DNA of 64,000 bases from Noviherbaspirillum cavernae. Its GTDB lineage: Bacteria; Pseudomonadota; Gammaproteobacteria; Burkholderiales; Burkholderiaceae_D. The notes under the pieces are model-generated. The model saw nothing but the letters and a program-made list of their open reading frames with translations. It was not told the origin of the DNA and searched no databases. Location of the stretch: contig NZ_QYUN01000003.1 of NCBI RefSeq assembly GCF_003590875.1, forward strand, positions 1-64,000. Direction: 5' to 3'. The translations under genes and the position numbers were made by a program. This document shows, one piece after another, positions 1 through 33,086 of the stretch; positions within the stretch are counted from its first letter, which is position 1; each line of letters begins with the position of its first letter.

Positions 1-2
1 GC

Positions 3-209
3 AACGATCTGAGCACGCCCGTGCCGGAATGGGGATTCCCGGGATTGAAGGAGGGCGATCAATGGTGTCTGTGCGCGCTGCGCTGGGCGGAAGCGGCGGA
101 CGCAGGCGTCGCGCCGCCGGTCGTGCTGGAAAGCACCAACCAGAGCGCGCTCGACATCATTCCGCTCGACGTGCTGGAGCAGTTCGATTACCGGCGCAAC
201 ATGCCTTGA
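3..209 (+). CDS. DUF2237 family protein, C-terminal part
   Basis: The reading frame is open from the window edge and ends at a TGA, so only the last 68 residues are visible. The segment PEWGFPGLKEGDQWCLCALRW followed by GVAPPVVLEST is characteristic of the DUF2237 family, small (about 120 residue) bacterial proteins of unknown function rich in conserved Cys and Trp. The true start lies upstream of the window; the first in-window GTG is inside the conserved domain and is not a start. A small membrane-protein gene follows 31 nt later on the same strand and may be co-transcribed. Confidence 0.85.
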   Translation, partial: NDLSTPVPEWGFPGLKEGDQWCLCALRWAEAADAGVAPPVVLESTNQSALDIIPLDVLEQFDYRRNMP

Positions 210-240
210 TCCGCCTTGCACTTTCGCTGCAGGAATGACG

Positions 241-339
241 ATGAAGAAAATGCCGGGTTGGATGCTTGCACTGCTCCTGATTCTGCTGCTTGGCGCGGCC
301 TTCTCCGCGCTGTACCTGACCTCGCTGTTCGAATCGTGA
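241..339 (+). CDS. Small single-pass membrane protein (32 aa)
   Basis: The ORF encodes a short basic N-terminus (MKKMPGW), one continuous hydrophobic helix rich in Leu and Ala, then a short polar tail ending in Glu-Ser. An AGGA sequence lies about seven bases before this ATG; an in-frame ATG six bases upstream is too close to it. No family is recognised. It follows the DUF2237 gene closely. The helix resembles a stretch at 3919-3990 (LAL...ALYLTSL), where differences fall mostly at third codon positions. A real small protein is likely but unproven. Confidence 0.5.
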   Translation: MKKMPGWMLALLLILLLGAAFSALYLTSLFES

Positions 340-399
340 CGCAGGATTTCCATGCGCCGCCGCTCTTGCAAACATGGGAGCGGCGGCGATATCACACGA

Positions 400-560
400 T
401 CATTTCCGCGTGTGAGCATCGACCCATGCCGCGTACGCGATCATGTACTTGTTGAGGAATTCGAGCGTGCTGTCGTTGCTCATCTTGCCCTCCGCATTGA
501 ACATCGCCGCAGCGGTCGAACTGGTCGGCCGCCATGCCGATGTCCTTCAGCGCGACCGGC
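400..560 (-). pseudogene. Remnant of NAD(P)H-dependent FMN reductase, C-terminus
   Basis: On the minus strand one frame reads FNAEGKMSNDSTLEFLNKYM then AYAAWVDAH and a stop at 400, which matches the usual end of SsuE/ChrR-type NADPH-dependent FMN reductases. Just upstream, in another frame, VALKDIGMAADQFD may be part of the same protein. There is no start and no flavodoxin core, so this is a decayed fragment. It abuts a TRAP transporter remnant, which suggests a deletion fused two dead genes. The family call rests on the tail motif only. Confidence 0.45.
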
Positions 561-561
561 G

Positions 562-735
562 CGCGACATGCGGCCGTGGCGCAGCGTCGCCGGCAGCTGG
601 AGAAAGACGATCATGATATGGAGCTCGCCACCATTTCCGACATGTCGTCGATTGGCTGGTTTGCCAGGTTGCGCAGCGCCACGTCGGCGCACATCAGCGC
701 CATCACGATGGTGATGATCACCGAGCCCGACGAAT
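562..735 (-). pseudogene. Remnant of TRAP transporter small permease (DctQ-like)
   Basis: The minus strand encodes SGSVIITIVMALMCADVALRN, LANQPIDDMSEMVASS and, after a frame change, VFLQLPATLRHGRMSRA. These are the first-helix and second-helix signatures of DctQ small permeases (normally about 170 residues): a helix ending in DVALRN, an amphipathic loop ending in SE, and LQLxxTLRxGRMSRAD. The frame is broken between helix 1 and helix 2 and the distal half is missing. No DctP or DctM gene is nearby. Confidence 0.55.
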
Positions 736-801
736 GGCCGTAGGCTTCGTTCGTGTTCAGGCATGCAATGCATGCCAACCAGTCGCCGCAACAGCCAACA
801 C

Positions 802-1009
802 GGTAGGTTGGGCTGCAAAGCCCAACATCCAGTGACATCAATCCGGCAGATATCGAAGATCGACTATCGCGGACACGTCAGTATTTCACTTTCAATTCGA
901 TGGATTCGAAAAACTTCTTTTCCTATCACATCCGGGAGCGCGACGGAGGGTACGAATTGTCCGGCTATCTCACTATTTGGGAACGTTGGGCTTTGCAGCC
1001 CAACCTACC
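802..1009. repeat. Palindrome-ended 208-bp repeat, copy 1
   Basis: The segment begins GGTAGGTTGGGCTGCAAAGC and ends with its reverse complement (GCTTTGCAGCCCAACCTACC). The interior carries phrases such as TGACATCAATCCGG, ATTTCACTTTCAATTCG and GGTACGAAT that recur in the same order in a second copy at 1671-1879. Terminal inverted repeats with a non-coding core suggest a miniature mobile element or intergenic repeat. The two copies are direct repeats flanking one lipoprotein gene. Confidence 0.75.
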
Positions 1010-1078
1010 TTGCTTAGCCAACGATTTCAGTCATGACAGTTCCTCGTTTTCAATTCTTGGATGTTGTTCGGTTGTCGT

Positions 1079-1651
1079 TCATTGCTGCGCGGGATCGGGG
1101 TAGATCTGTTGGATTCTTTGTCCGTCAAATCTCCTTTCACCGCTGGGCACCGGTTTGTACATGTCTTGCGGCTTTCCTTTTGTCCAAGGCTTCCCATCCC
1201 AAGGCCATATCACAAAGACATAGAGCTGCCGGTCATTGCAGACAAAATGGATATGCAGGTTCTCCAGGTTCTCGGGGAGCCGGTTGCGCAGATCAACCCG
1301 GTCTTCCAGGATTTCGCCGGTATCCTTGATCCGCCACTTGACGTAAAGAAATTCACCGCGTGGCAGGAAACCATTCAGGTTGCCACCTTTAAACGCTTGT
1401 CCCAGCCTGATCCGCTCACGCTCTGGCGCAAAAAAGACTTTCTCCAATTCGCCATATTGGTAATCAAGCACCTCGATATCAGGACTATCTTGGGAAGCAT
1501 TGAACTCGATTGAATAATGTAGAGCCACCTTATTTCCTCCTGTAGCACAAGCTGCCAAACACAAAATGCCTATGGCAAGAATTGCCTGTCGAATTTCAAT
1601 TAAAACAATTAAAAGGGTCAGCTTCGATTTACGTTTGCACTCACCACTCAT
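1079..1651 (-). CDS. Hypothetical lipoprotein (190 aa)
   Basis: The protein has a basic N-terminus, a hydrophobic stretch and a lipobox ending in LAAC near residue 35, so it should be exported and lipid-anchored. The rest is a soluble domain with a mixed pattern and a Trp/Pro-rich tail (VIWPWDGKPWTKGKPQDMYK). The start is supported by an AGGAGAGG ribosome binding site seven bases upstream. No family is recognised. Base composition is lower in GC than its neighbours, and the gene sits exactly between two copies of the 208-bp repeat, which suggests acquisition with them. Confidence 0.7.
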   Translation of the reverse strand: MSGECKRKSKLTLLIVLIEIRQAILAIGILCLAACATGGNKVALHYSIEFNASQDSPDIEVLDYQYGELEKVFFAPERERIRLGQAFKGGNLNGFLPRGEFLYVKWRIKDTGEILEDRVDLRNRLPENLENLHIHFVCNDRQLYVFVIWPWDGKPWTKGKPQDMYKPVPSGERRFDGQRIQQIYPDPAQQ

Positions 1652-1670
1652 TGCCTCTCCTCTTCAGCAC

Positions 1671-1879
1671 GGTAGGTTGGGCTGCAAAGCCCAACATTAA
1701 ATGACATCAATCCGGTAGGTATCGAAAATCGATCATCGTGGAGCCCGATGGTATTTCACTTTCAATTCGCCTGCTCCTAAAGGAGTTCTTGCCAATCGCA
1801 TACAAGCAATGCGACGGACGGTACGAATGGTCTCGCTGTTTCGATATTTGAGAATGTTGGGCTTTGCAGCCCAACCTGC
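1671..1879. repeat. Palindrome-ended repeat, copy 2
   Basis: Starts GGTAGGTTGGGCTGCAAAGC and ends GGGCTTTGCAGCCCAACCTG; the interior is diverged from copy 1 (802-1009) but collinear and in the same orientation. It lies just upstream of the lipoprotein gene transcribed from 1651 and immediately downstream of the repeat-lipoprotein gene ending at 1926. Confidence 0.75.
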
Positions 1880-1894
1880 GTTACTGCAGACGCA

Positions 1895-1917
1895 AGGGCA
1901 TGCCGATGGCATGCCCT
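1895..1917 (-). terminator. Hairpin downstream of repeat lipoprotein
   Basis: AGGGCATGCC and GGCATGCCCT form a perfect 10-bp stem with a three-base loop, nine bases past the stop of the gene ending at 1926. There is no clear U tract, so it may be a mRNA-stabilising hairpin rather than a true intrinsic terminator. Confidence 0.4.
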
Positions 1918-1925
1918 CCACACCG

Positions 1926-3605
1926 TCAATCGAACCGATTGACCCAGATGTTGTCCCGCGTTCCGTCATTCTGCTGCCACACCGCCAATGCATTGCCGCT
2001 GGCGTCGATGGCAATCTGCGTCAGGCCGGCGTGCTCGTCCTTGCGCGACTGGATCGGGCGAGCCGTCCTCCATCCCGTTGCCGTTGCGTAGCGGCTGCCC
2101 CAGATGTTGTTTCGCGTGCCGTCGTCCTGGGTCCACACCGCCAGTGCGTTGCCTGCGGCATCGAAGGCGATTTGCGGATTGCTGGCGTCGCCGCCGTTTT
2201 CGGTCTCGAGCAATTGCGCGGTACCCCATCCCTTCCCTGTCGTGTAGCGGTTGGCCCAAACGTTAACGCGTGTGCCATCGGATTGGGTCCACACTGCCAA
2301 CGCGTTGCCGCCGGCATCGATGGCGATTTGCGGATCGAATGCGTGATCGGCATTGTCGGTTTCCACCAATTGCGGCGTGCCCCAGCCGCTGCCTGCCGTG
2401 TAACGGTTACTCCAGATGCTGTATCGCGTACCGTCGGATTGCGTCCACACCGCCAGGGCGTTGCCTGAGGCATCGAATGCGATTTGCGGAAGGCGTGCGT
2501 CGCCCGCATTGCCGGTTTCAATCAATTGCGCCGTGCCCCATCCGGCCCCGACGGTGTATCGATTGGCGCGGATATCAATTTGCGCGCCGTCGGATTGCTG
2601 CCACACTGCCAGCGCATTGCCGCTGCCATCGATGGCAATGCGGGGGAACAGGGCATCACCTGCATTGTCTGTCTCGATCAATTGCGCCGCGCCCCATCCG
2701 GTTCCCACCGTGTAGCGGTTGGCCCAGACGTTGAAGCGGGTGCCGTCGGACTGGGTCCACACCACCAGGGCATTGCCTGCGGCATCGAAGGCAATCCGGG
2801 GATCGTACGCATCGCTTGCGTTGTCGCTTTCGATCAGTTGTGCGCTACCCCATCCCGAGCCTGCCGAATAGCGGTTGGCCCAGATGCTGAAGCGGGTGCC
2901 GTCGGTCTGGCACCACACGGCAATCGCATTGCCGCCCGCATCGATGGCAATGTGGGGAACAAAGGCACCGCTGGCGTTGCCTGTTTCGATCGCCTGCGCG
3001 CTACCCCAGCCGCTGCCTGCCGTGTAGCGGTTGGCCAGGATGTTGAATCGCGTGCCGTCGGACTGCGACCACACTGCCAGCGCGTTGCCGCCTGCATCGA
3101 CGGCGATTTGCGGATCGCGTGCGGTGTCGGCGTCATCGGTTTCGGTCAATTGCGCGGTCTTCCACGCGCCATCGCGCGTGGTGAAAGTGAGCGAGCGGGT
3201 GCCCGCGAGTTTCTCGCCGCCGGTGCCGGACAGCGCGGTGTTCACCTGCAACGTATAGCGCGTCAGCGGTAGCAGTTGCCGCGCCGGCGTGAGCGTGATC
3301 TGTGTCCCGGCCACGGCGAGCGTTGCCGGAACGTCGAGATTGGCGCCGCGCAAGCTCACGTTGGCCGCGGTGGCGGTGGCGCCGCCGAGTCCGGCCGAGA
3401 ACAGCAGTTGCGGCGCGACATCGCGCGCCACGTCGGTCGCGCCATCGGCCGGCGTGCTGGCGCTCACGCTCATGGTCTTCACGGTCGGGGCGATGTCTGT
3501 GTTGCTGCTGCCCGAGCCGCCGCATCCTGCCAGAAGAATGCTGGCCGCCAGGCCGATGAAAGTGGCGTGCCGCAAAGTAGCGGACACAGGGTGGAATGTC
3601 GTCAT
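1926..3605 (-). CDS. Lipoprotein with Big_5-like domain and eight ~52-residue repeats
   Basis: The 559-residue product has a signal peptide with lipobox LLAGC followed by Gly-Ser linker residues, then a bacterial Ig-like (SbsA/Big_5-type) domain around residues 40-140 with STPADGATDVARDVAPQLLF and the LTPARQLLPLTRYTLQV strand. From about residue 150 come eight tandem units of about 52 residues, each with a PQIAxDAxGNALAVW core followed by SDGTRxNIWANRY. The regular beta-strand pattern suggests a propeller-like fold exposed on the outer membrane. The ATG chosen has GAGG upstream; a TTG six codons earlier lacks support. No enzymatic motif is seen, so the function is unknown, probably binding or adhesion. 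Confidence 0.8.
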   Translation of the reverse strand: MTTFHPVSATLRHATFIGLAASILLAGCGGSGSSNTDIAPTVKTMSVSASTPADGATDVARDVAPQLLFSAGLGGATATAANVSLRGANLDVPATLAVAGTQITLTPARQLLPLTRYTLQVNTALSGTGGEKLAGTRSLTFTTRDGAWKTAQLTETDDADTARDPQIAVDAGGNALAVWSQSDGTRFNILANRYTAGSGWGSAQAIETGNASGAFVPHIAIDAGGNAIAVWCQTDGTRFSIWANRYSAGSGWGSAQLIESDNASDAYDPRIAFDAAGNALVVWTQSDGTRFNVWANRYTVGTGWGAAQLIETDNAGDALFPRIAIDGSGNALAVWQQSDGAQIDIRANRYTVGAGWGTAQLIETGNAGDARLPQIAFDASGNALAVWTQSDGTRYSIWSNRYTAGSGWGTPQLVETDNADHAFDPQIAIDAGGNALAVWTQSDGTRVNVWANRYTTGKGWGTAQLLETENGGDASNPQIAFDAAGNALAVWTQDDGTRNNIWGSRYATATGWRTARPIQSRKDEHAGLTQIAIDASGNALAVWQQNDGTRDNIWVNRFD

Positions 3606-4002
3606 GTGGGATCCTCGTTGCAAGAGGCCGTTTCAATATTTGCAATTTGCCTGGAACTCGTGAGGCGAGTTCCGAATTGCCGGCCTGCGCGGAGTGTGGG
3701 TGAATGGCACTTACAGATGGCTTACATATGACGAACTCTGCTTACGGATGGTGCGGCGAGCGCGGGCATGCCGCTGTGCGAGTAAGGCGGATGTGTTGTT
3801 GTCGATGCGTTGGCCGGGACCATGACCTGCATTGACCACGACACTGCAACGGCATGAATTTGACGAGTTCGTCACTCGAATTCATGAGTTCTGCATTGAA
3901 CAGCAGGTTCGGCCTGAACTTGCACTCGTACTTCTGTTCCTGAATGGCCCGCCATTCTGCGCGCTCTATCTGACATCGTTGCTTCAATTCCGAGCCGGCG
4001 CG
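3606..4002. other. Intergenic region, no confident gene
   Basis: About 400 bases between the repeat lipoprotein and the Hsp70 operon. The only notable content is a plus-strand stretch at 3919-3990 whose translation (LALVLLFLNGPPFCALYLTS) echoes the small membrane protein at 241-339. No start codon with a ribosome binding site is seen for it. Confidence 0.5.
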
Positions 4003-6831
4003 TCAGGCGATCAGCTTCAGTCCCGGCGGCAACGACTCTCCCAGCACCAGCCGTTCACTCGCTTCATCGAGCTGCATCGGTTCGCGCACCATGGCGATCC
4101 AGATTGCGGGCGCGCCCGCCGCTGCCAATCGCTGGATGACCTGTTCGCGCAATTCCAGCGGCAGGTCGCGCGCGCGGTCGCCTGTCATGCGCGCCAGATA
4201 GGCGGCGGCGAAGGCGGCAGCCTCATTGCGCTTCCAGTTCAGCGCGAGGATCGCGGTCAGCCATTCTGCGCCGACTTCGGGCGGCACGACATCGTGTGCG
4301 CTGCCGTAAAACGGCTGGCGCGCGCCGATCCGGCCGGTTGCCCACAGGATTCTGCCGGCGAGCGCATCCTTGTCCACCGATGGAGATTGCTGCAGGCGCT
4401 CGAACAGCCATGCGCCGATTTCGCTCTTGTATCCGGCGGGGATGCGTTCCAGCGAGGCGACGAGTCGCAGCATGTCGTCCTCGCTGCCGCTCGCCAGCGT
4501 GGTCGGGCGCGGTCCGCTGTCCTCTTCACTGCCTTGCACGTTGAAGGCGAAGTCGTTGAGCAGGCGCAGTTGCGCTTCTTGCTGCAAGCCGCCGGCGACG
4601 CGCCGCCACAGCGTCCACCATTCCGCATTGACGCGGCTGTCGTTGCCGTATTGCACGCCCGTTTCGTACAGCGGCCACAGTTGCGCGATGCGCCAGTCGT
4701 CGAGCGGATAGCCGAAGCCGGGACGCAGGCAATAGCCGATGAGATTGAGCCAGAGGCGTTCATGCTCGGCCGAGCGGCGTCGGCCTTTCGCGCGTTCCCA
4801 CAGCAGGTCGAACAGTTTGCGCAACAGCGGCGTATGCCAGCGTTCGCGGCTGCCGAGCAGTTTTTCCAGGCGCGTGCGGAGTTGCGTGACTTCCTTCGCC
4901 TGCACTTTCTGTGCGCGTGTGCCGAAGATGCGGTCGATTTGCGCCGCAGCGTCCGCGAAGCGTGGCGGCAATGCGTATTGCTGCTCGTCCTGCTCGGCCT
5001 GTGCATCGCGGTCGCGCAACTGGAATTCCAGCAGCCAGCGCCGGCTCGGATCTGTTGTGCTGACGCAATGCATTTCGAGCGTGCCGACTTCAGTCAGCGC
5101 GGTGGCCAGTTGCACCGGGATATCCTGTTTGCCGCCAGCGGTGTCCGCTTGCAGCGCGGTCGCGATCGGCGGCAGACGTGCAAAATCACCATGCGCGAGA
5201 TCGACGATATCGCCCAGCCTGGGCGCTGTCTGATTGATGGCATCGGCCGTCGATGAGATGAGGTGGAAGCGCACCGGTTGTCCGACGCGCAGCGCAAATA
5301 CGCGATCCGTGAGCAGGATTTCATGGCCTTCATCGCTGCCGCGCGGCAGGATGCAGATCGCGCGCTGCGGCACATCCTTTTCTGCATCGCTTGATGCTTC
5401 GAGCATGAGGAAATAGCTGCGCGGCGAGCCGCCGCCGATCCTCGGCGCGAGTCCCTTGCGGGCGAGGGTATAGGCGACCGCGCCGCGCGCCACCGCGACG
5501 TCCGGGTTGTCGTTGTGCAGCAGCCGCAGGGGCGCGCCGCGCCACTTCGCCAGTGTGTCCTGCAGGCGCCGCGCCAGTGCATCGGCGCGGAACACGCCGC
5601 CGTTCAGCAGCAGGGTGTCTGGCAGCGCGCCTTCGCTTGTCGCGTGCTGCATCAGGAAACCGGCAAGATGGCGCGTGACTGCCGCATCGCTCGCATAGGG
5701 CAGACCGAATTCGACGATGCCGCTGCGCCTTTGCCGCGCTGGCTCGTCCGCCGCAACCATGGGGAAAAAACCGTCGACGATGGTGCGCTCGACTTCATCG
5801 CGCGTCAGTTCCACCGAGCGTGCGCCGCCGATCACGCGCGCGCCCGCGCCGAGCAGCGTCACGGTCGTCTTGTCCGGCGCATTGGCGGCGAGCAATTGCT
5901 CCTTCGCGGCACGGCAGCGTTCCATCAATTGCGACAGCGCGCCGGCCGACAGGCGCGCCGCGCCTTCCTCTCCCGCCATGCGCGACTCGGCGATGTGCGC
6001 CAGCACCAGATCCATGTTGTCGCCGCCCAGCATCAGGTGCTTGCCGACGCCAATACGTGTCAATTCAGGTGTCAGTTCCGGTGTCAGCTGCGGTTCGCCA
6101 TCGCGCAATGCGACCGTGATCAGGCTGAAGTCGGTGGTGCCGCCGCCGACATCGCACACAAGGATCAGGCGCGTCTGCGCCAGCTCCGCATCGAGCGTCT
6201 GCCGATGGCGGAACAGCCAGTCGTAGAACGCCGCCTGCGGTTCCTCCAGCAGCCGCAGGGTCGGCAAGCCGGCCTGCGCCGCCGCCTTGACCGTCAATGC
6301 GCGCGCACCTTCGTCGAACGATGCCGGCACGGTCAGCACGATGTCCTGCAGTTCCAGCGGCGCGTGCGGAAAATGCATGTTCCACGCCGCGCGCACATGC
6401 GCGAGATAGCTCGCGCTGGCATCGACCGGCGAAATCTTCGCCACATCGTCCGCCGCGCCCCACGGCAGAATGGGCGCGAGCCGATCGACGGCGGCATGCG
6501 AGAGCCAGCTTTTCGCGCTCGCCACCAACCGGCCCGGCACCTGAGCACCGAGCTTGCGCGCCAGCCGACCGATCACGACATTCTCAGTGTCGCCGCCCGC
6601 GCTCCACGGCAGCCGCAAATCGTCGCTGACCAGCTCGCCGGATGCAGGGTGATAGCGCAGCGAGGGCAGCAGCGGCGCTGCCTTGACCTCGCCGAGCGCC
6701 ACCAGTTGCTCGATCTCGAACAGGCGAACCTCGTCGCTGCCGGCGTCGGCACCGTCGCTGGCCCTGGCGTCGGCATAGGCGACCACCGTATTGGTGGTGC
6801 CGAGATCGATGCCGACCGCGTAGCGCTTCAT
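4003..6831 (-). CDS. Hsp70-family protein with long C-terminal extension (DUF3731 type)
   Basis: The 942-residue protein starts with the Hsp70 phosphate-1 loop GIDLGTTNTVVAYAD and carries phosphate-2 (VCDVGGGTTDFSLI), LLGGDNMD and the adenosine-site NGGVF motif within an N-terminal ATPase domain of roughly 460 residues. A beta-rich region follows, then a long alpha-helical C-terminus of about 300 residues as in DUF3731-bearing Hsp70 relatives, well beyond the ~640 residues of DnaK and without the DnaK EEVD-like tail. It is the last gene of an operon, starting two bases after the stop of the second Hsp70 gene. No DnaJ or GrpE gene is adjacent. Presumably a cytoplasmic ATP-driven chaperone of unknown clientele. 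Confidence 0.9.
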   Translation of the reverse strand: MKRYAVGIDLGTTNTVVAYADARASDGADAGSDEVRLFEIEQLVALGEVKAAPLLPSLRYHPASGELVSDDLRLPWSAGGDTENVVIGRLARKLGAQVPGRLVASAKSWLSHAAVDRLAPILPWGAADDVAKISPVDASASYLAHVRAAWNMHFPHAPLELQDIVLTVPASFDEGARALTVKAAAQAGLPTLRLLEEPQAAFYDWLFRHRQTLDAELAQTRLILVCDVGGGTTDFSLITVALRDGEPQLTPELTPELTRIGVGKHLMLGGDNMDLVLAHIAESRMAGEEGAARLSAGALSQLMERCRAAKEQLLAANAPDKTTVTLLGAGARVIGGARSVELTRDEVERTIVDGFFPMVAADEPARQRRSGIVEFGLPYASDAAVTRHLAGFLMQHATSEGALPDTLLLNGGVFRADALARRLQDTLAKWRGAPLRLLHNDNPDVAVARGAVAYTLARKGLAPRIGGGSPRSYFLMLEASSDAEKDVPQRAICILPRGSDEGHEILLTDRVFALRVGQPVRFHLISSTADAINQTAPRLGDIVDLAHGDFARLPPIATALQADTAGGKQDIPVQLATALTEVGTLEMHCVSTTDPSRRWLLEFQLRDRDAQAEQDEQQYALPPRFADAAAQIDRIFGTRAQKVQAKEVTQLRTRLEKLLGSRERWHTPLLRKLFDLLWERAKGRRRSAEHERLWLNLIGYCLRPGFGYPLDDWRIAQLWPLYETGVQYGNDSRVNAEWWTLWRRVAGGLQQEAQLRLLNDFAFNVQGSEEDSGPRPTTLASGSEDDMLRLVASLERIPAGYKSEIGAWLFERLQQSPSVDKDALAGRILWATGRIGARQPFYGSAHDVVPPEVGAEWLTAILALNWKRNEAAAFAAAYLARMTGDRARDLPLELREQVIQRLAAAGAPAIWIAMVREPMQLDEASERLVLGESLPPGLKLIA

Positions 6832-6833
6832 TG

Positions 6834-8759
6834 CTATCCGGCCTGGCCGCGCACGTTGAATTCCACCTTCCAGCGTTCATGTCCGGTGCGCGGCACGGCC
6901 GACAATTCCAGCGTGCCGGCTTCCGTTACGCGCGCGTGCAATTGCACCTGCACCACTTCGCCCGCCTGTCTCCCTTCGGCCGGCAGGGTCGCCTGGATTT
7001 CATCCAGCTCCTGCAATTCATCCGCCTGCCACGATTCCAGCATCGTGCCGATCTGATCCTGACGCCGCACGGTCGAGCCGAAGAAGCGGAAGTGCACCGG
7101 CTCGCCCACCACGAGCCCGAACTCCTGCGCCTGCAATTCCGCCTCGGTGCCTTCCTCCATGCCGAAGGGCGCGACACACAGCGCCTGGATCGGTGGCTCG
7201 ATGCCGGGGATGGCCGGCATGGCCGACTCCACCGCGACGTAATAGGCGCTGGCGGTGCCGCCGCGTATGCGCACGCCCTTGCCGCGCCGCACATGGCCGT
7301 AGTACGACGCGCCGCGCGCCACCGCCAGGTCGAGGTCGGCGCCCGCCAGCATGCGCGCCGGCTGCGCGCCCTCGGCGGTAAGCCAGCGGTTCAGCGTGGC
7401 CAGCGTGCGGTCGGCGAGGATGGTCGATTTGAAGATGCCGCCGTTGAACAGCACGGCGGTCGGATGCAGAAAGCTCGCGCCCGGATCGGCCTGGCCGCCG
7501 AAGCCCTCCAGCTCCGCGATGGCGCTCACCTGCCGTCCGAGAAAGCCGGCGAGGTGGCGCGTGATCGCGGCATCCTGCGCGAACGGCAGACCCAGTTGCG
7601 TGAGACCGGCGCGCGGCCGCACGGCGGGCCGCGCCGATGCTTCCACCTGCGGGAAGAAACCTTCCAGGATCGTCGCCGTGACTTCCTCGCGCGTCAGCTC
7701 GGTGCGGATCGAACCGCCGATCAGTTTGGAACCGCGACTCGGCACGACGATGGGCATGGCCTGCATTTCGGATGCCGACAGCAGGCTCTCCTTCGCCGCG
7801 CGGCAGGCATAGGTCAGCGCGCGCATCTGCCACGGATCGAGCTGGGTGCCGGCGGCGGCGAGCTTGCGCGCCACCACGTGCGCCAGCGTCAGGTCCATGT
7901 TGTCGCCGCCCAGCAGGATGTGGTCGCCGACCGCGACGCGGTGCAGCTCCAGATTGCCCTCGCGCTCCACCACCGCGATCAGCGAAAAGTCGCTGGTGCC
8001 GCCGCCGACGTCGATCACGAGGATGATGTCGCCCGGTTTCGCTTCCTTGCGCCAGCCGCCCTCGCTGCTCAGGATCCAGTTGTACAGCGCGGCCTGCGGT
8101 TCCTCCAGCAGCGTGAGCGAGTCGAAACCGGCGGCGCGCGCCGCTTCCGCCGTCAGCTCGCGCGCCGCCGGATCGAACGAGGCGGGAATCGTCACCGTGA
8201 TGTCCTGTGCGCGAAAGGGCGCGTCCGGATACGCGTGGTCCCACGCATCGCGCAGGTGCGTCAGGTAGCGCACCGAGGCGTCGAGCGGCGACACGCGCGA
8301 CACATCCGGCGGCGCGTCGCTTGGCAGGATCGCCGCCCGCCGGTCCACACCGGGATGGCAGAGCCAGCTTTTCGCGCTCGACACCAGCCGGATCGGCGTG
8401 GTCGCGCCGCGGCTGCGCGCCAGGTCGCCGACGATGTGATGCTGCCCGCTGCCCCACGGCAAACTCAATTCGCCCGGCGCGAATTCATCCGCATGCGGCA
8501 GATACAGGAAGGAAGGCAACAGTGCCTGCACCGCGATTTCGCCCGGTGCCGACAATTGCGGCACTGTGAGCACGCCATGCACGCCATGCACGCCATGCAC
8601 GCCATGCACGCCATGCACGCCATGCACGCCATGCACGCCATGCACGCCATGCACGCCATGGCTGGCCGCCTCGTCGTCGTTGCCGGCAGTATCGACATAC
8701 GCCAGCGCGCAATGCGTCGTGCCCAGATCGACGCCGATGGAAAACCGCCGCCCGCTCAC
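6834..8759 (-). CDS. Hsp70-family protein with (His-Gly-Val)10 insertion
   Basis: The 641-residue protein has GVDLGTTHCALAYVD at the N-terminus, VIDVGGGTSDFSLI, LLGGDNMDLTLAH and FNGGIFKSTIL, so the nucleotide-binding fold is complete. The C-terminal ~130 residues form a beta-rich domain (VGEPVHFRFFGST) in place of a canonical DnaK substrate-binding domain with lid. Ten tandem HGV tripeptides sit after residue ~33, between the first beta strands of the ATPase domain, where DnaK has only a short loop. The start is GTG, overlapping the DUF2760 stop as GTGA, which indicates translational coupling. It differs greatly from its downstream paralogue, so the two may act as a pair. Confidence 0.9.
   Translation of the reverse strand: MSGRRFSIGVDLGTTHCALAYVDTAGNDDEAASHGVHGVHGVHGVHGVHGVHGVHGVHGVHGVLTVPQLSAPGEIAVQALLPSFLYLPHADEFAPGELSLPWGSGQHHIVGDLARSRGATTPIRLVSSAKSWLCHPGVDRRAAILPSDAPPDVSRVSPLDASVRYLTHLRDAWDHAYPDAPFRAQDITVTIPASFDPAARELTAEAARAAGFDSLTLLEEPQAALYNWILSSEGGWRKEAKPGDIILVIDVGGGTSDFSLIAVVEREGNLELHRVAVGDHILLGGDNMDLTLAHVVARKLAAAGTQLDPWQMRALTYACRAAKESLLSASEMQAMPIVVPSRGSKLIGGSIRTELTREEVTATILEGFFPQVEASARPAVRPRAGLTQLGLPFAQDAAITRHLAGFLGRQVSAIAELEGFGGQADPGASFLHPTAVLFNGGIFKSTILADRTLATLNRWLTAEGAQPARMLAGADLDLAVARGASYYGHVRRGKGVRIRGGTASAYYVAVESAMPAIPGIEPPIQALCVAPFGMEEGTEAELQAQEFGLVVGEPVHFRFFGSTVRRQDQIGTMLESWQADELQELDEIQATLPAEGRQAGEVVQVQLHARVTEAGTLELSAVPRTGHERWKVEFNVRGQAG
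8571..8660 (-). repeat. Ten perfect 9-bp tandem repeats inside Hsp70 gene
   Basis: CACGCCATG is repeated ten times without a mismatch on the plus strand, encoding (His-Gly-Val)10 on the minus strand. Because the unit is a multiple of three, copy-number changes would alter loop length without shifting the frame. The perfect identity implies recent expansion. Confidence 0.97.
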
Positions 8760-9349
8760 AGTTCCACCTCGGCCGGCGCCAACACGGACGCGTCGTGGCT
8801 CTCGACCAGCTTCGGCAGACGCACCTCGGTCACGCGCCAGCCGCGATGGCTGATGCTGCCGTGAAACGGCGGCTTGCCGGCGACATTGCCGGTCAGGCGG
8901 ATGGCGGCGGCGTCGAAGCCATCGTTGAGCGTGATGCGGCTGCCCTCGCTTTCCTGCCGCACCGGCGCGATGCTGAAGTGTTCCTGCAGCACCTTGCGGC
9001 AGCCGTCATGCACCAGCCGCGCCGCCGCGCCGATGTCCGCATCGGAATAGCTGGTCAGATTCTCCTGCGTGAAATCGATCAGGCGGCCGTCGCGCTGCAA
9101 CAGGCCGAGCAGTTGAAGCGCGGCGTCGGGCGAAGCCTCCTTCAATACCGATGGCGGCGCTTGCGGCGGCACTGGCGCTGGCGCTTGCGATGATGCAGCG
9201 GGCGGCGCTTCCTCCGCACGGCGCAAGCGCTCGACGCCGGCGGCGAATTCGCCGCTCGACAAGGTGCCGAAGAATGCGCCGAACGCCAGCCCGATGCGGC
9301 GCAGGAAGGAGGGCGTTTCATGGTTCGGATCGGGCCTGGAATTGTTCAT
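8756..9349 (-). CDS. DUF2760 domain-containing protein
   Basis: The 197-residue protein has an N-terminal amphipathic part (FLRRIGLAFGAFFGTLSSGEFAAGVERL), an Ala/Pro-rich linker around residues 45-70 and a C-terminal domain with ALQLLGLLQRDGRLIDFTQE and GSISHRGWRVTEVRLPKL, which I recognise as DUF2760. The family has no known function but repeatedly accompanies the two Hsp70 types found here. The ATG at 9349 has AGGAG nine bases upstream; the longer upstream frame is not needed. It is the first gene of the three-gene operon and overlaps the next start by four bases. Confidence 0.85.
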   Translation of the reverse strand: MNNSRPDPNHETPSFLRRIGLAFGAFFGTLSSGEFAAGVERLRRAEEAPPAASSQAPAPVPPQAPPSVLKEASPDAALQLLGLLQRDGRLIDFTQENLTSYSDADIGAAARLVHDGCRKVLQEHFSIAPVRQESEGSRITLNDGFDAAAIRLTGNVAGKPPFHGSISHRGWRVTEVRLPKLVESHDASVLAPAEVEL

Positions 9350-9384
9350 TGTCTGCTCCTGTGGTTCATTGTCTGCTCCTGTGG
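9345..9384 (-). repeat. Tandem duplication of ribosome binding site and start of DUF2760 gene
   Basis: A 20-bp unit (TTCATTGTCTGCTCCTGTGG on the plus strand) occurs twice head to tail. On the minus strand each copy supplies AGGAGCAGACAATGAA, a ribosome binding site plus ATG. The upstream copy opens a seven-codon ORF (MNHRSRQ) whose TGA overlaps the real ATG, a layout suited to translational reinitiation. Confidence 0.9.
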
Positions 9385-32435: not shown

Positions 32436-33086
32436 GTGAAGATTCCGGCGCAAGGAACAATTGCGCCGTCGCCGTCACTCATGTGTGTCAGCTGGATCGG
32501 CCGCAAGGCGATTCCACTGGCGGATTCGATCTTCAACCAGACACGATTGCTGAACACCATGTGGAATAACGACGCGCCATATCCCGATTTGTCATCGCTT
32601 GCCGGCATCGAGACACCGCCTCCTGCCAGCCTGCCGCAGCGCCTGAAGCAAAGCTTCAAGCTCGCATTCCATGTGAGCAATGTCGGCCTGATCAGCGTTA
32701 CCGTGCCGCCGCGCAATCGCGACGCCAATTTCCCTGGCGGCGTGAGCGATTATCACATCCTGTCCGCGCTGGCCTGCTTCCTGTCGCCGGACTACGTTGT
32801 CCAGATGGGACGCAATGCGCACGGATGGACTTTCACCGCGTCGCCGTTCCGCCATGGCCTGCCGCCGGTGGAAATCCAGACGGATCGCGCATACACGCTG
32901 CGCAGTTGCGTGGTGGGTGATAACGATCATGCCGGTCATGCCGGTCATGCCGATCATGCCGGTCATGCCGGTCATGCCGATCATGCCGATCATGCGTATA
33001 CCGCCGCCGCCTTTTTTCAGCGCAGTGACGCGTCATGCACCACTGCGGAAAGTTCGCTGTCGTGCGCGGTGCCGGAGCCGGCCTGA
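32436..33086 (+). CDS. Hypothetical protein with (Asp/Gly-His-Ala)8 repeat
   Basis: The 216-residue protein starts at GTG with AAGGGAGA upstream. The N-terminal ~160 residues look like a folded domain (LMCVSWIGRKAIPLADSIFNQ, FHVSNVGLISVTVPPRNRD, YHILSALACFLSPDYVVQMG); residues 164-187 are eight D/G-H-A tripeptides, and the tail is Ser/Cys-rich. No signal peptide and no recognised family. A LexA-type box 29 bases upstream implies SOS control together with the divergent radical SAM gene. The His-rich repeat could bind metal or act as a flexible linker. Confidence 0.7.
   Translation: MKIPAQGTIAPSPSLMCVSWIGRKAIPLADSIFNQTRLLNTMWNNDAPYPDLSSLAGIETPPPASLPQRLKQSFKLAFHVSNVGLISVTVPPRNRDANFPGGVSDYHILSALACFLSPDYVVQMGRNAHGWTFTASPFRHGLPPVEIQTDRAYTLRSCVVGDNDHAGHAGHADHAGHAGHADHADHAYTAAAFFQRSDASCTTAESSLSCAVPEPA
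32925..32996 (+). repeat. Eight 9-bp tandem repeats in hypothetical gene
   Basis: Units alternate GATCATGCC and GGTCATGCC in the order A-B-B-A-B-B-A-A (the last ends in G), giving D/G-H-A tripeptides. The A-B-B block is itself repeated, so expansion of a 27-bp unit is likely. It is the second in-frame 9-bp His repeat in this window. Confidence 0.95.

Follow-up and report, generated by a model that had tools for sequence, protein, structure and literature searches.

A conserved operon linking DUF2760 to two divergent Hsp70s, a candidate membrane-tethered chaperone triad

In a stretch of 64,000 nucleotides from Noviherbaspirillum cavernae (NCBI RefSeq assembly GCF_003590875.1, contig NZ_QYUN01000003.1, positions 1 to 64,000; the whole stretch is called the window below), we found an operon that couples a gene for a DUF2760 protein to genes for two divergent Hsp70s, here termed HspB and HspC. 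The trio is a real conserved unit present in several bacterial groups, and its tight linkage is not a product of chance. We propose that it specifies a dedicated membrane-tethered Hsp70 triad with DUF2760 as its tether or co-chaperone, a reading to which we give a probability of roughly 0.45, a little short of even odds. Hsp70s are among the best-studied of all proteins, yet our literature searches found no function for the HspB/HspC pair. As the genes are so tightly linked, the trio is directly testable by deletion or co-purification.

The operon reads in the order DUF2760, HspB, HspC (Table 1). The GTG start of HspB overlaps the DUF2760 stop by four bases and a gap of two bases separates HspB from HspC, an arrangement that a previous sequence-only reading of the window had described and that the open reading frame (ORF) coordinates bear out; the same reading had one Hsp70 extended by about 300 residues, and HspC indeed exceeds HspB by 301. 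The longest ORF listed for DUF2760 opens at TTG 9481, not at the ATG that we adopt. In Pfam searches, DUF2760 matches PF10816 (189 bits), HspB matches PF00012 (63 bits), and HspC matches both PF00012 (62 bits) and PF12531 (325 bits), the latter being the DUF3731 domain at residues 687-940. Neither DnaJ nor GrpE was recognized among the seven flanking ORFs scanned with Pfam, in keeping with what had been noted before.

Table 1. Coordinates of the operon, its DUF3731 domain and two local repeats in the window
Feature	Position	Strand	Details	Basis
DUF2760 protein	8756..9349	-	ATG 9349, 197 aa	Pfam
HspB (lidless Hsp70)	6834..8759	-	GTG start, 641 aa	Pfam, alignment
HspC (Hsp70 with C-terminal DUF3731)	4003..6831	-	ATG 6831, 942 aa	Pfam, alignment, model
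DUF3731 domain (PF12531) of HspC	4012..4773	-	lid position	Pfam
Perfect 9-bp tandem repeat	8570..8660	-	10.1 copies, in frame, His-Gly-Val, near HspB start	repeat scan
Duplicated 20-bp ribosome-binding-site/start-codon segment	9344..9385	-	before DUF2760	repeat scan

Evidence for a real unit comes from conserved synteny. Relatives number in the thousands, at least 7,999 having been scored. A DUF2760 search of species genomes gave 172 relatives; we kept the best 80, nearly all from Burkholderiales. HspB lies 3' of DUF2760 on the same strand in every one of these, with -4 to 26 bases between the two, and 71 share the identical four-base overlap. HspC comes next on the same strand in 77, at most 30 bases away in 74, and the other three hit the end of the locus after 0, 335, and 842 bases, part of HspC being present in one. 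The association recurs at broader scales. Among 299 genomes sampled from the phylum, 26 encode DUF2760 and 25 encode DUF3731, all 25 falling within the 26; in the 26th (G026) HspB adjoins DUF2760 and HspC would lie past the contig end. The window's order shows the same pattern (DUF2760 in nine and DUF3731 in eight of 180 genomes), the ninth DUF2760 being on a contig of 3,078 bases that also carries HspB (G540), as does the class of G018 (five and four of 30 genomes, these being included in the earlier counts). Counting DUF2760 alone, the family is core in a genus whose name, Vibrio, we infer from the match to a HapR site described below: it occurs in 218 of 223 genomes of this Vibrio-type genus and is missed in two genomes of 1.0-1.1 Mb and three others. 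On plasmids, HspB was found in 11 of 72,556 records, DUF2760 in the same 11, and full-length HspC in 10 of them. Thus, the synteny of DUF2760 with both Hsp70 types, which the sequence-only reading had offered as a check, holds in that HspB always adjoins DUF2760 among the 80 relatives and every DUF3731 genome of the phylum sample also has DUF2760; the routine scattering of the three genes, which it had named as grounds for abandoning the idea, is not seen, the exceptions being the three loci weighed further below.

A fourth conserved gene was sought in 24 neighborhoods and rejected: in this comparison, made coarse by misplaced gene calls in GC-rich DNA, the sole cross-family neighbor was one family, sigma-70-like by eye, at two loci, adjoining DUF2760 in L141 and lying about 2 kb off in the other orientation in L151; other shared neighbors were restricted to a single genus or were frames antisense to the trio. 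A natural DUF2760-HspB fusion was likewise rejected, the two being separate frames in 105 loci. Individual loci have features of their own. One genome has a small aspartyl-protease-like gene between DUF2760 and HspB (L149:7870-8280; Asp_protease_2 just above cut-off), groES-groEL follow the trio at a distance of about 1 kb on a plasmid of Bradyrhizobium sp. CB82 (L155), and the DUF2760-HspB duo of the Thiodictyon plasmid pTs485 (L153) has anti-phage-annotated genes and a TIR-domain gene in its vicinity.

Both Hsp70s belong to the Hsp70 superfamily by their ATPase domain, each scoring over the PF00012 cut-off, with the modeled fold of HspC in agreement. We aligned 10 HspB and 10 HspC rows with the DnaKs and HscA that NCBIfam identifies in this genome. 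Lys70, Glu171, and the GGGT motif are retained in all 20 rows, and the window's two proteins display G-I/V-DLGTT, the Lys70 equivalent in SAKSWL, EEP, and DVGGGT, which upholds the earlier statement that both keep full ATPase motifs. On the other hand, none of the 20 rows keeps the hydrophobic interdomain linker of DnaK (LLLD), in whose place stands a stretch that includes Gly, frequently R-I-x-G-G, and all of them have Glu instead of Asn170; Arg167 is retained in one of 10 HspB and six of 10 HspC rows. We take Arg167 and Asn170 to be J-domain contact residues of DnaK. With the DnaK linker and Asn170 uniformly missing, DnaJ-type partnering of either protein looks unlikely. The C-terminal halves, previously called simply divergent, can now be described more precisely. 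Both contain a part resembling the beta subdomain of the substrate-binding domain (SBD-beta), recognized in HspB by alignment and in HspC by model; HspB ends after it and, as judged by alignment, is lidless, and HspC continues into DUF3731 where the lid would be. In the HspC model (predicted local distance difference test score [pLDDT] 81), approximately residues 2-607 match the DnaK/BiP fold and residues 610-942 are all helices.

Several comparisons set the pair apart from the familiar Hsp70 families. In the nucleotide-binding domain (NBD), HspB and HspC of the window are 46% identical to each other, versus 22-25% to DnaK and 29-32% to HscA, and they miss the NCBIfam cut-offs for DnaK and HscA widely (37-83 bits versus 620-1019), whereas the genome's own DnaKs and HscA each pass at least one. 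In a tree built on the first 560 residues of 44 rows, with DnaK and HscA as the Hsp70 families compared, HspB and HspC together split from DnaK/HscA at 100/100, albeit with a long-branch warning from the program. HspB forms one clade in the same tree (99/99); HspC is not resolved as a single clade, two changes being needed on this tree, to which the warning also applies. These results bear on the alternative in which HspB and HspC, though divergent, work as general chaperones with the DnaJ and GrpE of the cell, and DUF2760 is a minor accessory. The DnaK/BiP fold of HspC residues 1-607 would fit such a role, and extra Hsp70s are evidently common, as the genome also encodes two DnaKs, one HscA, and one YegD-like gene (256 bits, cut-off 331). 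However, the altered linker and Asn170 in every row, the tight linkage to DUF2760, and the separation from DnaK/HscA, notwithstanding the long-branch warning, make this alternative rather improbable.

DUF2760 itself has an N-terminal helix pair (approximately residues 14-47), a Pro/Ala-rich linker (approximately 48-72), and a C-terminal domain (74-197) that ends in APAEVEL. Across 27 diverse members aligned, the N-terminus is variable and the C-terminal domain conserved. One or two hydrophobic N-terminal segments followed by Lys/Arg are present in the Vibrio-type genus, on Bradyrhizobium plasmids, and in G018-type genomes, with a best 19-residue hydropathy of 1.9 to 2.9 in these groups and of 1.03 in L101/L147 (one genome); the segments of the Vibrio-type and Bradyrhizobium members are transmembrane-like. 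In the window's protein, the first helix is hydrophobic and Arg-flanked, and residues 11-40 are modeled at a pLDDT of 84-87. These features suggest an adaptor that is attached to the membrane and carries a cytosolic domain, an attachment and topology predicted from sequence. The terminal seven residues conform to A-x-A-E-V/I-E-L/V/I in 106 of 106 rows judged complete (25 of 131 rows were dropped, and some genomes are counted twice); some of the dropped rows end in APAEVELR or APAQVELK. PF10816 is its sole Pfam match at E-values up to 0.01, with none to a J-domain or GrpE.

The position and tail of DUF2760 also suggest a reversed relationship, in which it is the working protein and a client that the dedicated Hsp70 pair holds, inserts, or remodels. 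Dedicated chaperones are frequently encoded beside their client, DUF2760 leads the operon and is its most tightly coupled member, and its conserved tail could serve as a recognition tag. Nevertheless, the commitment of two ATP-dependent Hsp70s to a 197-residue protein would be unusual, and DUF2760 matches no other Pfam family that might suggest an activity of its own; hence we regard a client role as unlikely.

The proposal of a membrane-tethered triad draws directly on the tight operon, the domain layouts, the hydrophobic N-termini, the ATPase motifs, and the lost linker and Asn170, from which we infer a membrane attachment and topology, a complex, a division of labor, and a class of clients. 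The N-terminus of DUF2760 would anchor it to the inner membrane, and a flexible linker would hold the C-terminal domain on the cytosolic side. This domain would bind one or both Hsp70s in place of a J-protein, so that DUF2760 could both tether and gate the HspB/HspC pair at the inner membrane. The lidless HspB might serve as a scaffold or regulatory partner, in the manner of Ssz1 or Hsp110 acting on an Hsp70, and HspC, with DUF3731 in place of the lid, would cycle with ATP on clients, which would probably be membrane-associated proteins. A bolder version, which we consider possible but doubtful, is a J-domain-independent inner-membrane Hsp70 machine in which DUF2760 represents a new co-chaperone class, its C-terminal domain and AxAEVEL tail gating the lidless HspB and an HspC with DUF3731 as a new lid. 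If DUF2760 does replace the J-protein, the trio would be an Hsp70 system without J-domain drive.

Certain observations weigh against the proposed triad. The N-terminal helix of the window's DUF2760 is moderately amphipathic, 118 of 2000 segment shuffles being equally high, and the amphipathicity peak lay elsewhere in two of nine relatives scored; this helix may not bind the membrane. The DUF2760 model is poor (predicted template modeling score 0.36) and a structure search gave no usable fold match, and hence no co-chaperone fold is demonstrated for it. With respect to linkage, 2.9 kb separate HspB from HspC in G082, HspC is on a different contig as a 738-residue frame in the draft genome G053, and pTs485 has DUF2760 and HspB with DUF3731 nowhere on the plasmid.

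The published record offers a further perspective through Vibrio cholerae; DUF2760 occurs in nearly all genomes of the genus that includes this species. The HapR site that PMC10328515 places between VC1375 and VC1376 was matched exactly in one of 227 Vibrio-type genomes, about 330 bases upstream of DUF2760, which is then followed by the HspB start. This exact match identifies VC1375 as DUF2760, and VC1374 and VC1373 would be HspB and HspC, judging from their order and from the DnaK-related names given to them in papers. HapR is reported to activate the VC1375 promoter in vivo and in vitro (PMC10328515), VC1374 is listed among biofilm-repressed genes (PMC9201469; operon VC1373-1375, one hit), its log2 change is -2.68 in a study of polymyxin B and vc1639 (PMC5636140), and VC1373 stands at -1.039 in a riboflavin/iron study (PMC5816637). 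Two other occurrences were discarded as strain names rather than genes (VC1373 in PMC4159263, VC1374 in PMC9608740). Beyond these, none of the terms DUF2760, DUF3731, PF10816, and PF12531 occurs in the PMC texts searched, a collection without subscription papers; when a lidless bacterial Hsp70 with a name was looked for in the literature, none of the papers listed dealt with the trio, and the survey in PMC11019930 counted DnaK-type paralogs alone. The sequence-only reading had regarded the trio as an unstudied chaperone-like system with no published function. Its core stands, in that this is a conserved Hsp70-based unit with DUF2760 as an obligate neighbor for which we found no function, and its suggestion that DUF2760 may stand in for a co-chaperone is kept here as a proposal, but published expression data exist for the V. 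cholerae orthologues VC1373-1375; thus, as far as our searches show, the trio is unstudied in function but has not gone wholly unnoticed.

These expression data raise the possibility of a lifestyle-regulated envelope chaperone, one serving a membrane process that is switched by cell density or biofilm state. HapR activation, biofilm repression, and the two expression changes all point in this direction, but a HapR site does not stand out genus-wide. Of 40 upstream regions fetched, 32 were scored, the start not being located in the other eight, with a mean best score of 8.1 versus 7.4 in shuffles; five of the 32 beat all but three of 60 shuffles. Because five of 60 shuffles reached the V. cholerae-type control itself, this test has little power. 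We consider a lifestyle-regulated envelope chaperone improbable. Still less can be said for an anti-phage or other defense system on an accessory island. The patchiness in the window's order (nine of 180 genomes) and the 11 plasmid records are what an accessory system might show, and of five plasmid regions viewed, one lies beside anti-phage-annotated genes and two are on predicted conjugative plasmids. Yet PADLOC matches are weak and partial (PDC-M61B, 18 and 25 bits), phages gave no match, nor did viral contigs in a search limited to close relatives, and the core status of DUF2760 in the Vibrio-type genus disfavors a defense island, which we therefore hold to be very improbable.

Some features of the window concern the local sequence rather than the function of the trio. 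The His-Gly-Val array of HspB (Table 1) is probably a recent slippage expansion, because the motif occurs once in the first 120 residues of 50 of 80 relatives and is absent in the other 30. A second 9-bp array at 32924-32995 (TCATGCCGG, about 7.7 copies) encodes His-Ala-Gly/Asp repeats in the ORF at 32436-33086. At the duplicated segment before DUF2760, the upstream ATG at 9369 starts a seven-codon frame, read by eye, whose TGA overlaps the DUF2760 ATG. The seven flanking ORFs comprise a Big_5 repeat protein, a nicotinate phosphoribosyltransferase (NAPRTase), a sulfatase, DUF2471, DUF1622, and two without a match; the Big_5-domain protein, at 1926-3623 downstream of HspC, has about seven repeats of 156 bp (52 residues). 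The end of the contig (G000:C3:722566-727115) is an exact copy, 4,550 bases long, of bases 1-4550; with this redundant end, the replicon on which the window begins is probably circular and about 722.6 kb in size.

Among known chaperones, the DnaK-DnaJ-GrpE system shares with the trio the NBD and SBD-beta fold seen in HspC and the ATPase motifs of both Hsp70s. It differs in the low NBD identity (22-25% to one of the two DnaKs encoded in the same genome), in its linker and Asn170, in having a lid where HspB has none and HspC has DUF3731, and in its DnaJ and GrpE, which have no counterparts in the scanned flanks. HscA is slightly closer in the NBD and is the best NCBIfam match, though far under the cut-off; however, Asn170 and a linker like that of DnaK are both present in the HscA of this genome, and no iron-sulfur gene was recognized among the flanking ORFs scanned. 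Hsp110/Sse1 offers a precedent for an unequal Hsp70 pair, and its chains are among the fold matches of HspC, but DUF3731 is a Pfam family of its own and the fold comparison spanned HspC residues 2-607. An analogy may also be drawn with the eukaryotic Ssz1-Zuo1-Ssb triad, which the trio resembles but of which it is no member: that triad has a J-domain tether, whereas DUF2760 has no J-domain by Pfam; the tether there leads to the ribosome, whereas here it would lead to the membrane; and Ssz1 hydrolyzes little or no ATP according to PMC8476630, in contrast to HspB and HspC with their ATPase motifs. Nevertheless, both combine a longer Hsp70, a lidless Hsp70 with an SBD-beta-like part, and a non-Hsp70 protein that serves in the eukaryotic triad (PMC8476630), and would serve in the trio, as a tether to a large structure. 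If DUF2760 does take over from a J-protein, the trio would be a bacterial counterpart of the three-part chaperone at the eukaryotic ribosome.

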